Assembly: GCA_902781465.1 (NCBI GenBank)
Contig: CACZJK010000003.1
Span: 170,579 to 234,578, forward strand
Length of the DNA: 64,000 nt
Direction: 5' to 3'
Origin: an uncultured Pseudomonadota bacterium
GTDB taxonomy: Bacteria; Pseudomonadota; Alphaproteobacteria; Rs-D84
In this document: in pieces, positions 4,805 through 56,016 of the stretch
How the letters are laid out: each line of letters begins with the position of its first letter
How positions within the stretch are numbered: the first letter of the stretch is position 1
The notes under the pieces: generated by a model
The model's database searches: none
Seen by the model: only the letters and a program-made list of their open reading frames with translations
What the model was told of the DNA's origin: nothing
Program-made: the position numbers and the translations under genes

Positions 4805-5075
4805 TGTTCCTTTCCTTTTCTTCCTGTTGTTAAAAAACAGAACCGCACTTATAATCAAGGGCGGTTGGAGGTTCGAAACAATTAAGATAGAAATTGCGCC
4901 AATATTTTACCAAATGGTATTATTTTTGGACCCTCCAACCCTTCTTTGTTGATTGGAGTATTTTACATTCAAATATAAATATATACCTGAACGCTATCTT
5001 ATGGGGTTTCGAATCCCCATCAACAAAACACTTGCCGACAAAATGATTTTAACAAATATTAAAAATCAAAGTAAA
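4805..5075 (-). promoter_or_regulatory. Promoter and attenuator leader RNA A (class 1)
   Basis: Read on the minus strand: TTTACT (5070-5075), 18 bases, TAAAAT (5046-5051), then a 7-bp hairpin with a 5-base loop (5020-5038) followed by ATGGGG/CCCCAT. An anti-antiterminator CTCCAA (plus-strand 4953-4958) can pair with the antiterminator strand GGTTGGAGG (4932-4940), which in turn is the exact complement of CCTCCAACC (4863-4871). That last segment includes part of the terminator 5' arm AACCGC...GCGGTT (4841-4866) with its U-run at 4832-4837. The gene's Shine-Dalgarno follows. It is inferred to be an on/off transcription attenuator; the ligand is unknown. Confidence 0.65.
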
Positions 5076-15258: not shown

Positions 15259-15496
15259 ATTTTTCCTCCAACTTTTTTCTTAAACGAAAGAACCGCTCTA
15301 AAAAAGGGCGGTTGGAGGTTAATCGCATTTCGTATCAAAATGTGCTGCTTATTCAATATATTCACAGCCCCCCAACCAATCTTAGTTGGAGATTTTAACG
15401 TCTTTTCAAGACGGATACTCAACGGGCGATTAAACCCCATCAGGAAAACTCTTCCTGACGTTTTTTAGTCTATCAAATTACTATCAAAGTCTGCAA
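15259..15496 (-). promoter_or_regulatory. Promoter and attenuator leader RNA B (class 1)
   Basis: Minus strand: TTGCAG (15491-15496), 18 bases, TAGACT (15467-15472); then a perfect 7-bp hairpin TCAGGAA/TTCCTGA with a 5-base loop (15440-15458) followed by TGGGG. A hairpin CCAAC/GTTGG (15372-15389) holds the antiterminator strand GGTTGGGGG (15369-15377), which can instead pair with CCTCCAACC (15310-15318). That segment overlaps the terminator 5' arm AACCGC, with GCGGTT at 15291-15296. The U-run is weaker than in leader A. Against leader A, the 5' hairpin keeps length and loop while its stem sequence covaries. Confidence 0.65.
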
Positions 15497-15503
15497 GCGT
15501 TTT

Positions 15504-16799
15504 TTATTTCTTTAATATATCACCAGATTTTATATATTCTGGTGAATTTTTCTTTGATTTTTGTTGTGCCTTTTTCGCATATTTGTGTGCGTTGGCTTTA
15601 TCACCGTTCATATTGTAAAATTCAGCCATTGCCCAATCTGATTCACCATCAACCGTCACACGTGCCAATATCCAATATGCCAATGGTGATGGTTCGGTTA
15701 ATATAACACGCTTAGACAATTCTGTTGCGCGTTGTTTATCGCCAGGCTTGTTTCGTTCGCTTAATACCAATGCCAATGCAGTTTCAATTTGTGGCGCATT
15801 TTTCGATAATTGCAAAGATTTTTCGTATGCATTAACACTGTCGTCGTATGCGCCAAATTGGTATTCTATATCGCCCAATAATTCGTAAAAGTAAGGATTG
15901 TTAGGATGTCGTTTAATCAGTGTTTGTGTGCCAGTTTTTGCCGTCTTTAAATCGCCACCCCGCATATTAGCAATTGCGCGCGCATAAATTGCCGCGTCGC
16001 TTTTGTTGGAATAAGGGTATTTTGTTATAACTGATTTATCATTGTCCAGATAACCTATCAATTTAGCGCGCAAGATTTCATAATTCGCGTTTTCGTTTGC
16101 TGTTTTGTCCGCCGATGCTGTCGGCACTTTTTTCAGTTTAGATATTTTTGTTTTTGTATTATTTATACGTTCGTTTGTCAGCGGGTGATTGATACGGTTT
16201 GGGTTCAATTTTGATTCTATTGCGCCATGCATTTCACGCATTTGTTCGAAAACTGTAATCAGTCCATTTGGATCTTTGTTGGCTTTTACCATTAAATCGA
16301 CCGCCATATCGTCTGCCATACGTTCTTCATCCCTGGAAAAAGACAACATAGATTGCTGGGCGATACCACTGGCCCCCGCCATAACACCAACACCTGCGGT
16401 TGGATTGCCGCCTGCAACCATTAAACCAACACCAAGGGCCTGAATTATCAAAGTTCGCACCATTTCATCGTGCATCCGTTGTGACATTTGAACCATATGA
16501 CCACCGATGGTATGCCCCAATTCGTGTGCAATAACCGCACGTAAAGCGTTCGGATTTTTAATTTGTTTCAAAAGGCCTGTATAAACAAAAATGTCTTCGC
16601 CCCCGCGGACAAAGGCATTAAAATCATTATCGTTGACAATATAGATTTTCAATCTGCTTTCTGGAATATCGGCGGCAATCGCGACTGGTTTTATAATTTC
16701 TGTAATCTGCTTTTCGATTTCTGTATCGTTGATAAGCGTTGCGGCATTCGCACCAAACGCAACAAAAACAGAAAACAAAATCGTCAATATACGTTTCAT
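15504..16799 (-). CDS. M48 family metalloprotease with TPR repeats (BepA-like)
   Basis: The start at 16799 overlaps the recG stop by one base (TAATG). The product (431 aa) has a signal peptide (MKRILTILFSVFVAFGANA), a peptidase M48 domain with zinc motif HELGH in VIAHELGHTIGGH and a downstream Glu in RDEERMADDMAVD, then C-terminal TPR-like helices (YFYELLGDIEYQFGAYDDSVNAYEKSLQL). BepA-type periplasmic proteases monitor outer-membrane protein assembly; that role is inferred from architecture. Confidence 0.9.
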   Translation of the reverse strand: MKRILTILFSVFVAFGANAATLINDTEIEKQITEIIKPVAIAADIPESRLKIYIVNDNDFNAFVRGGEDIFVYTGLLKQIKNPNALRAVIAHELGHTIGGHMVQMSQRMHDEMVRTLIIQALGVGLMVAGGNPTAGVGVMAGASGIAQQSMLSFSRDEERMADDMAVDLMVKANKDPNGLITVFEQMREMHGAIESKLNPNRINHPLTNERINNTKTKISKLKKVPTASADKTANENANYEILRAKLIGYLDNDKSVITKYPYSNKSDAAIYARAIANMRGGDLKTAKTGTQTLIKRHPNNPYFYELLGDIEYQFGAYDDSVNAYEKSLQLSKNAPQIETALALVLSERNKPGDKQRATELSKRVILTEPSPLAYWILARVTVDGESDWAMAEFYNMNGDKANAHKYAKKAQQKSKKNSPEYIKSGDILKK

Positions 16800-18928: not shown

Positions 18929-19195
18929 TTCACAAAGTATAAAACTTTTGTTAGAATTAAAAATGAATCCAATGGGAATTGGGTTCGGGTCTTTCAAGCC
19001 CATAAAGCACGGTGTGAATTGCATCGTAATCCAAATATACCAGATGGCACATCTGGAATGCCTGACCTTATGGTTGGGTATGGGTTGTTATAAAACAGGT
19101 TTATCCGAAGACGCCCGCTCATTTGCTTTATGAGTTGAAAATACCCGACCGCCCGTTTTCATTGGCGGTTTTATTTTTTGGCAAAGGGGAAAATT
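18929..19195 (+). promoter_or_regulatory. Promoter and attenuator leader RNA D (class 2)
   Basis: TTCACA (18929-18934), 17 bases, TAGAAT (18952-18957). The 5' hairpin AATCCAAT-GGGA-ATTGGGTT (18966-18985, GNRA-type loop) is followed by CGGG. Then come a variable 7-bp hairpin CCAGATG/CATCTGG (19040-19056) and CCTGACC-TTAT-GGTTGGG (19061-19078). Its second strand GGTTGGGTAT (19072-19081) is fully complementary, with one G-U, to ATACCCGACC (19141-19150), which overlaps the terminator arm ACCGCC (19148-19153; GGCGGT at 19164-19169; T-run to 19179). The Shine-Dalgarno AAAGGGGA follows. Confidence 0.7.
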
Positions 19196-31783: not shown

Positions 31784-32022
31784 CCTTTCCCCCGATTTTG
31801 TAATAAAAAGACCGTCCAAAAGGCGGTCGGGGGTTAGAACAGCACATATATAAGATGCCCCGCTTACGCGGCACCCCGACCAAATGTCAGGGGTTTGGCA
31901 ACAAAGTGCCAAGGGCGGATTACGACACAACGCGCGCCGTATATATAAGGGATGTTCTAAGTCCCGAAACCAATTCCCATTGGATTCAATATTATTATAA
32001 AAGAAAGCCCGATAAATGTAAA
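31784..32022 (-). promoter_or_regulatory. Promoter and attenuator leader RNA C (class 2)
   Basis: Minus strand: TTTACA (32017-32022), 17 bases, TATAAT (31994-31999). The 5' hairpin AATCCAAT-GGGA-ATTGGTTT (31967-31986) starts about 7 bases after the -10 box and is followed by CGGG. Further on, TTGGC/GCCAA forms the variable hairpin and CCCC.GAC/GTCGGGG (plus-strand 31875-31893) the anti-antiterminator. GGTCGGGG (31874-31881) is exactly complementary to CCCCGACC (31825-31832), which overlaps the terminator arm GACCGCC paired to GG.CGGTC (31810-31828) before a U-run. The gene starts after GGGGGAAAGG. Confidence 0.7.
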
Positions 32023-32188: not shown

Positions 32189-32437
32189 ATGAATCATTAT
32201 CAAATTTGGCATGCGATAGAATTGTTTGCTCGCGAACATGGAATGAGTTGTTCTGGGCTTGCTAAATACAGTGGACTGGATCCAACCACTTTTAACAAAA
32301 GCAAACGGGAATCAGTTTTTGGTCAACCGCGTTGGCCTTCGACGTCCAGTATTGCAAAGATAATAAATGCGACCGGTGCAAAGCCTGATGATTTCTTTAA
32401 ACTTGTTGGCGCCAATAATAATTCAAATGAAAAATGA
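32189..32437 (+). CDS. Small HTH regulator (phage-repressor-type DNA-binding domain only)
   Basis: The ATG at 32189 follows AAGGAAGGAG. The 82-aa protein consists of the helix-turn-helix that begins alphaproteobacterial S24/LexA-like repressors: IELFAREHGMSCSGLAKYSGL, then DPTTFNKSKR and the wing-like QPRWPSTSSIAKIINATG. The C-terminal autoprotease domain is absent. A 54%-like paralogue by eye is at 54776. It is divergent from leader C with promoters about 170 bases apart, so it may control the secreted-protein operon. Confidence 0.8.
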   Translation: MNHYQIWHAIELFAREHGMSCSGLAKYSGLDPTTFNKSKRESVFGQPRWPSTSSIAKIINATGAKPDDFFKLVGANNNSNEK

Positions 32438-54775: not shown

Positions 54776-55021
54776 ATGACGCATTCACAGGTTTGGCAGG
54801 CAATAGAATTTTTTGCCAAAGAGCGCGGTTTAACATGTTCTGGGTTGGCGCGTCGCAGTGGATTAAGCCCGACCACGTTTAATAAAAGTAAGCGTTTTTA
54901 TGTTTCGGGTCGTCCGCGTTGGGTATCATTGGAAAGCGTGGCGAAAGTAATAAATTTTGCGAATATTTCGGCCACAGAATTCTTTAAATACGTTGACGCC
55001 GCCCCACAAAAAACGAAATAG
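54776..55021 (+). CDS. Small HTH regulator (phage-repressor-type DNA-binding domain only)
   Basis: An 81-aa paralogue of the protein at 32189, with CAAGGAGG as Shine-Dalgarno. It reads IEFFAKERGLTCSGLARRSGL, SPTTFNKSKR and RPRWVSLESVAKVINFAN, that is, the N-terminal HTH of S24-type phage repressors without the peptidase domain. Its stop lies 15 bases before the -35 box of leader E, on the same strand, which makes it a candidate local regulator of secreted pair E. Confidence 0.82.
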   Translation: MTHSQVWQAIEFFAKERGLTCSGLARRSGLSPTTFNKSKRFYVSGRPRWVSLESVAKVINFANISATEFFKYVDAAPQKTK

Positions 55022-55035
55022 CATTTTGTTATATA

Positions 55036-55293
55036 TTGACTTTTTTTGTGGTTTGTGGCACACTGTTAAATGAATCCAAGGGATTGGGTTCGGGGCTTTA
55101 GCAGGCCTATACACTCGGCGCGAGAGCGTCGTAATCTGATGTTTGTCGGTGCTTGTTGCGCCGTTGTCATCCCTGACCTCTATGGTTGGGGAGCCGTGAG
55201 TGTATATATAAAGGCCACGGAATCACTAGTGTATGATTGCTAACTCCCCGACCGCCTTTTGGACGGTCTTTTTTATTGCCAAAAGGGGAGAAA
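55036..55293 (+). promoter_or_regulatory. Promoter and attenuator leader RNA E (class 2)
   Basis: TTGACT (55036-55041), 17 bases, a weak CACACT (55059-55064). The 5' hairpin AATCCAA-GGGA-TTGGGTT (55073-55090) is one base pair shorter than in leader D but keeps the GNRA loop, and is followed by CGGGG. CCCTGACC (55171-55178) pairs with GGTTGGGG (55184-55191). The strand GGTTGGGGAG (55184-55193) is fully complementary, with one G-U, to CTCCCCGACC (55244-55253), which overlaps the terminator GACCGCC-TTTT-GG.CGGTC (55250-55268) with its T-run. Shine-Dalgarno AAAAGGGGAG follows. Confidence 0.7.
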
Positions 55294-56016
55294 ATGAAAC
55301 GGTTTTTAATGTTATTATCATTACTATTCTGTAATACAGTATGTGCAGATACAATAACTTTAAAATGGTTTAATGAAGGTCAATCTGAATATACAACCAC
55401 AACATGCCAAACTGGTGAAGATATAATATTGCCGCAAACAACACCAGTAAAACGAGGGTATACATTTGTAGGATGGAAAAAAGCAGATTATGTACCTATA
55501 CAATACATAGAAGGTATAGGTGGTGGACTTCAACGTATAGATACTGGCATTAATTCATATCTTGATAGCCATATAGCAATTAAGATTTCAACAGTAAGTG
55601 CAGGTTCAGGTGATTGTATAATGGGTAGTTATAGAGGAATAGGTTTTTCTATCATTGGGGTTAATTATTTTTATTTATTTTTAGGTGTGACCCAGGTACA
55701 AGGACGTTCTGGCTATACAGCGATTCTTGAACAAAATGGGCACCAGTCTTTTATTGATGGGAATCTTATAGGGACCGTTGGTGGAAATGCATTTCAATCT
55801 GGTAAGATATATATTTTGTCTAATGGAACAGATAGTTCTAATGCGAAAGGCGTATTCCGCATTCATTGGGCAAAAATATGGAAAGATGATACTTTGCAAC
55901 GAGATTTTATACCTGTTCTTGATTCAAATGGGATTCCATGTTTATACGATAAAGTTTCTGAACAATACTTTTATGATGAAAATGGAAATTCTTTTAATGC
56001 AGGACCTGTGATATAA
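55294..56016 (+). CDS. Secreted InlB-repeat plus lectin-fold-like protein (first gene of pair E)
   Basis: A 240-aa protein starting after AAAAGGGGAG. Signal peptide MKRFLMLLSLLFCNTVCA, N-terminal InlB-type repeat (LKWFNEGQSEYTTTTC...VKRGYTFVGW), then YVPIQYIEGIGGGLQRIDTG, a diverged form of the beta-sandwich opening. The C-terminal QRDFIPVLDSNGIPCLYDKV...FNAGPVI matches the family. The middle is unlike the other members, which suggests diversification for different ligands. It is separated by one base from its partner. Confidence 0.83.
   Translation: MKRFLMLLSLLFCNTVCADTITLKWFNEGQSEYTTTTCQTGEDIILPQTTPVKRGYTFVGWKKADYVPIQYIEGIGGGLQRIDTGINSYLDSHIAIKISTVSAGSGDCIMGSYRGIGFSIIGVNYFYLFLGVTQVQGRSGYTAILEQNGHQSFIDGNLIGTVGGNAFQSGKIYILSNGTDSSNAKGVFRIHWAKIWKDDTLQRDFIPVLDSNGIPCLYDKVSEQYFYDENGNSFNAGPVI

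Follow-up and report, generated by a model that had tools for sequence, protein, structure and literature searches.

Within the 64,000-nucleotide stretch of DNA analysed here (the window), leader E extends on the plus strand from its P1 hairpin through the Shine-Dalgarno sequence (55072..55290), ahead of a gene for a Flg_new repeat protein that starts at 55294 (+). The leader begins with P1, a 5′ hairpin with a GNRA-type loop (55072..55091), followed by the P2 hairpin (55092..55107), whose loop, TTAGCA (55098-55103), constitutes docking site 1 and resembles a1 of C4. The strand ATACACT (55109..55115) constitutes docking site 2 and resembles b1 of C4. Next come P3, a hairpin of variable length (55116..55163), and the 5′ strand of the anti-antiterminator P4, CCCTGACC (55171..55178), whose partner (55184-55191) falls within the antiterminator strand, namely the P5 5′ strand GGTTGGGGAG (55184..55193). 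The P7 hairpin (55221..55238) exposes AGTGTAT (55228-55234), which pairs with site 2, and the junction J7/5, TGCTAA (55238..55243), is the partner of site 1. The P5 3′ strand CTCCCCGACC (55244..55253) has GACC in common with the intrinsic terminator (55250..55274). Two related genes for Cro/C1-type HTH proteins of about 81 amino acids lie directly upstream of leaders E and C (54776-55021 and 32189-32437, both on the plus strand); the HTH_26 score of both proteins is slightly under the Pfam cut-off, and a third relative is the product of a gene that itself stands behind a leader (L160).

The window contains four sister leaders. Leader D (18965..19170, +) has site 1 at 18992-18997, site 2 at 19001-19009, the P4 5′ strand at 19060-19067, P5 formed by 19072-19081 with 19141-19150, and its terminator at 19147-19169. 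The other three are on the minus strand. In leader C (31805..31987), site 1 (31953-31960) and site 2 (31940-31946) are followed by the P4 5′ strand (31886-31893), P5 (31874-31881 with 31825-31832) and the terminator (31810-31828). Leader B (15291..15458) carries site 1 at 15426-15433, site 2 at 15414-15418, P5 at 15370-15377 with 15310-15318, and a terminator at 15291-15313, and the corresponding parts of leader A (4841..5041) are at 5006-5013, 4994-5001, 4932-4940 with 4863-4871, and 4841-4866. All five leaders beat each of 200 dinucleotide shuffles in folding (z from -3.5 to -5.3). In leader E, the P5 3′ strand (55244-55249) has a second complement in the Shine-Dalgarno region (55285-55290), and the same strand in leaders B and C (15311-15318 and 31826-31832) is complementary to the Shine-Dalgarno sequence before 15258 and before 31783, respectively; translation control could thus exist too.

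Judged from sequence and predicted structure, the five leaders all belong to a single family of large RNAs that is widespread in Alphaproteobacteria. A covariance model, R1 (197 positions, 53 pairs), built from 18 aligned leaders (leader E and 17 from other genomes), matches leaders E, D, C, B and A with 148.8, 85.4, 57.6, 27.9 and 26.7 bits, at rough E-values of 2e-40 to 5e-6. This bears out the first-pass annotation, which had placed five leaders of one family at these positions. The genome of the window contains at least 15 copies, 14 of them found by R1 in the genome search and the last being leader A, which was matched in the window search only. Among 40 related genomes, 33 contain R1 matches, with up to 51 copies per genome of about 1 Mb, and a DNA search with leader E finds relatives in 20; the genome with 51 leaders in about 1.0 Mb (G014, JAFSDI contigs) has approximately one per 20 kb. 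Of 385 Alphaproteobacteria sampled, 27 carry the family, some of them with genomes of 2-5 Mb, and the nine R1-positive genomes of a phylum-wide sample are all Alphaproteobacteria; several of the genomes in these surveys are incomplete. A gapped pattern of the P5 strands retrieves 110 stretches from public genomes, almost all from gut or termite-gut Alphaproteobacteria, with two records named Candidatus Enterousia and three evident high-G+C false positives. Carriage by viruses was considered as well: one viral contig with a leader (L257) has it beside a lipoprotein gene and in a form identical to a chromosomal copy (L180/G006), and is thus uninformative on phages.

The helices covary. Over 122 matches, 49 of the 53 pairs show changes on both sides and 94.8% of the cells pair; none of 500 shuffles reached these values on any measure, and slid controls did not come near either. 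This agrees with the selection at the RNA level proposed at first pass, with the proviso that the structure itself guided the helix alignment; the permutation test of the docking pairs, which are outside the model, is therefore the stronger proof.

The anatomy of the switch is highly conserved. P4 (CCCUGAC with GGUCGGGG) and P5 (GGUCGGGG with CCCCGACC) are competing helices. Of 103 leaders, 102 have the anti-antiterminator hairpin and 101 have a terminator that borrows bases from the P5 3′ strand; a U-run follows in 152 of 168 leaders. The complementarity between the antiterminator strand and the terminator 5′ arm, noted at first pass, is true of all five window leaders, and the attenuator layout described there is upheld by these counts. 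A −10 box with at least five of six matches to TATAAT is found in 98 of 118 leaders, as compared with 79 of 354 background windows, and in most leaders this sigma-70 element stands 6-7 nt ahead of the first hairpin, which makes the leader most likely the 5′ end of the transcript. The promoter assigned to every leader at first pass thus holds for most of the family, with the −35-like TTGACT (55036-55041) as the only clear promoter element in leader E. On sequence evidence, the leaders therefore combine an upstream promoter with an antiterminator and an intrinsic terminator that exclude each other, as expected of a transcription attenuator. In nearest-neighbour calculations, the OFF state is favoured by a median of 9.8 kcal/mol without docking and the ON state by 3.1 kcal/mol with docking, the docking energies being crude sums without loop penalties. 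The 4 nt after P5 are most often GCCA (48 of 122 gut leaders), and ACCA in several distant leaders; this tail resembles a tRNA acceptor end and might allow RNase P or CCA-related recognition.

The two long-range pairings of leader E, between the P2 loop and J7/5 and between the strand after P2 and the P7 loop, were missed at first pass and recur throughout the family. Measured as contiguous Watson-Crick bases in 104 non-redundant leaders, site 1 forms 6.04 bp with its own partner vs 3.14 with the partners of other leaders, and site 2 forms 6.78 vs 2.89; for neither site did any of 10,000 permutations reach the observed value, which establishes both pairings and their specificity in cis. Both are kept in all 15 known copies of the window's own genome, and cis docking also holds in the more distant leaders sampled across the class (0/5000). 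The docking sites are the fastest-evolving segments, with 50-56% identity (70% for J7/5); P5 is 94-96% identical between leaders of 72-92% overall identity. One leader (L259/L124; G015:C14:126336-126528) has target sites unmatched to its own 3′ domain, whose sites equal those of another leader (L108), as if recombined; it is an exception that counts against the docking proposal made below, and offers a natural cis versus trans test; 16 matches in its genome were examined as possible partners, and most of the weak ones look like chance.

The genes behind the leaders are accessory surface and defence genes with no shared pathway. By a simple heuristic, signal-like N termini are found in 84 of 149 such genes vs 133 of 610 other ORFs (p 1.6e-15), and the Pfam domains comprise Flg_new repeats, glycosyltransferases, outer-membrane barrels, surface antigens, DNA methylases and GmrSD. 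The first-pass statement that a leader precedes every secreted-protein operon fails for the secreted M48 peptidase gene at 15504-16799, which lacks one, and the restriction to secreted proteins does not extend beyond the window, where glycosyltransferase, methylase and restriction genes are also preceded by leaders. Nor do the data support a common signal that switches the family as a set, since the parts that would carry specificity vary from copy to copy, each pairing with its own partner, and evolve fastest. What survives of that interpretation is the attenuator, the selection on RNA and the absence of a named riboswitch class.

At gathering score, Rfam recognises only four tRNAs in the window and none of the leaders. 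Relaxed thresholds qualify this result: in many leaders, precisely the P5-P7 domain is hit by RF02221, the model of the integron/prophage sRNA sRNA-Xcc1, with 31-43 bits against a gathering score of 53. Leader A is one of these (4855-4940, −; 39.2 bits, E 7.9e-6 for the genome). Model positions 1-87 align end to end with the P5/P6/P7 three-way architecture and its conserved internal loop, and R1 reciprocally finds RF02221 loci, several over their full length. RF02221 is present in 58 of 398 Pseudomonadota genomes. In 26 of its loci, the P7 loop and the junction pair both with an upstream hairpin and strand and with the ribosome-binding site (RBS) of the next gene (0/5000 for each), and nine of ten next genes tested encode Bro-N, P22_AR_N, KilA-N, pRha or SymE. 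Loci L227-L256 have the look of complete C4-type systems, with two upstream targets, an antisense RNA and RBS targets, ahead of phage antirepressor genes. The leaders have no such copy at the RBS, the hallmark target of C4 regulation, whether in gut genomes (5.38 vs 5.26 bp, 483/5000) or class-wide (2220/5000). sRNA-Xcc1 has been reported as an 88-nt RNA (PMC2996969), and the Rfam model starts at the first base of P5, as would fit an RNA processed out of a longer transcript.

Based on the above data, we propose, with somewhat more confidence than doubt, that each leader is an antisense module of the C4/sRNA-Xcc1 type, placed in cis, converted to a transcription attenuator and open to input from sister RNAs. 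Transcription would begin at the 5′ hairpin, and the RNA would first make two short target sites, the P2 loop and the strand after P2. The 3′ antisense domain, closed by P5, would come next and present the P7 loop and J7/5, complementary to these sites. In the ON state, the sites would be docked and P5 closed, the 5′ arm of the terminator would be sequestered and the gene transcribed; in the OFF state, the P5 5′ strand would be captured by P4 and the terminator would form. Docking would thus favour read-through. As input, the likeliest candidate is an antisense module that stems from transcripts made earlier off the same leader; perhaps freed by cleavage before P5, it would act in trans by binding the nascent target sites of sister transcripts, blocking docking and forcing termination. 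The outcome would be a self-specific negative feedback, like that of the C4 or P4 CI immunity RNAs. No match to Hfq was found in the window's own genome, which means that the trans step would need to be independent of this protein.

An attenuator that acts in cis only has appreciable though lesser plausibility. In such a leader, docking would be a switch set by transcription speed, temperature, Mg2+, an RNA-binding protein or processive antitermination, and the variable sites would drift neutrally, complementarity alone mattering. Every pairing is indeed satisfied in cis, and neither the RBS target nor Hfq was found. Moreover, cross-pairing among copies of the same genome is no rarer than between genomes; trans action might produce selection against cross-talk, and the lack of any sign of it, i.e., of an excess of orthogonality within genomes, is a point against the trans mechanism. 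Such a leader would, however, leave two observations unexplained, namely the layout it has in common with the trans-acting C4/Xcc1 antisense RNAs and the faster divergence of the docking sites relative to the other paired regions.

The size of this multi-helix RNA, its expression platform and the conserved internal loop of P6 (UAUAAAACAGG / CCGAAAG) could also suggest a riboswitch, in which a metabolite or ion bound at this loop or at the junction would stabilise P5. We consider this unlikely: the genes behind the leaders have no common pathway, Rfam yields no hit to a riboswitch class even with E-values up to 10, and the P6 loop is conserved in sRNA-Xcc1 loci as well, which makes it a structural part of the P5-P7 domain. 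Leader-peptide or T-box-like attenuation, sensing translation or tRNA, has hardly any probability. Long open frames are visible by eye in leaders D and E, but a Shine-Dalgarno sequence and ATG with at least 15 codons in the first 45 nt occurs in only 4 of 122 leaders, and segment lengths are evenly spread over the three frames; a leader peptide was rejected on these two grounds, and no T-box match was found in Rfam.

The proposed antisense attenuator adds to the known repertoire a large structured cis-regulatory RNA family in Alphaproteobacteria, absent from Rfam 15 and present in very many copies in gut lineages, and provides a testable example of gut bacteria with reduced genomes turning a phage immunity RNA to everyday gene control. 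A bolder extension, which we rate as rather improbable, is that of a phage-immunity circuit domesticated and multiplied into dozens of independent self-antisense attenuators per genome of about 1 Mb, each in charge of one surface or defence gene. If true, it would give each cell a heritable or bistable choice of surface proteins, an RNA-based alternative to phase variation.

The relationship of the leaders to known antisense systems can be viewed at three levels. With RF02221, they share the P5-P6-P7 three-way domain, an AUA..A internal loop opposite GAA, a UUUUgA junction, and the upstream hairpin and pairing strand. RF02221 loci differ in having the second target copy at the RBS and in standing mostly before antirepressors or SymE, whereas the leaders have a terminator overlapping P5 and lack the RBS copy. 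In the phage P1 record, the order is a1, b1, C4, a2, b2, with C4 directing its hairpin loop CACTAAC against b1/b2 and the CTGTCAA that comes next against a1/a2; the C4 precedent is reviewed in PMC12197685. The leaders likewise have upstream a1/b1-like sites complementary to the hairpin loop of an antisense domain and to the adjacent strand. They share with C4 (RF01695, RF03163; phages P1/P7) the order of promoter, a1, b1 and an antisense RNA closed by a long helix, in which the hairpin loop pairs with one target and the strand directly after it with the other. Unlike C4, they have no a2/b2 at the RBS and are predicted to attenuate at an intrinsic terminator rather than block translation. The link to P1 C4 is one of layout only: the Rfam C4 models (RF01695, RF02944, RF03163) match no leader up to E 10, and Rfam does not put sRNA-Xcc1 in the C4 clan. 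In satellite phage P4, pairing of CI RNA with two sites, one upstream and one downstream, ends transcription prematurely (PMC4825925). The leaders would resemble it in mechanism, by an antisense RNA that comes from the leader itself, by pairing with an upstream site and by premature termination, and CI differs in using a downstream site (seqC) as well as seqA. Because their upstream sites and RBS copies are laid out as in P1, we conclude that the sRNA-Xcc1 loci are probably C4-type systems, which would tie this Rfam family to the phage C4 antisense RNAs with a1/b1 upstream and a2/b2 at the RBS, and that the alphaproteobacterial leaders appear to be a variant that has dispensed with the RBS copies and uses terminator control instead.
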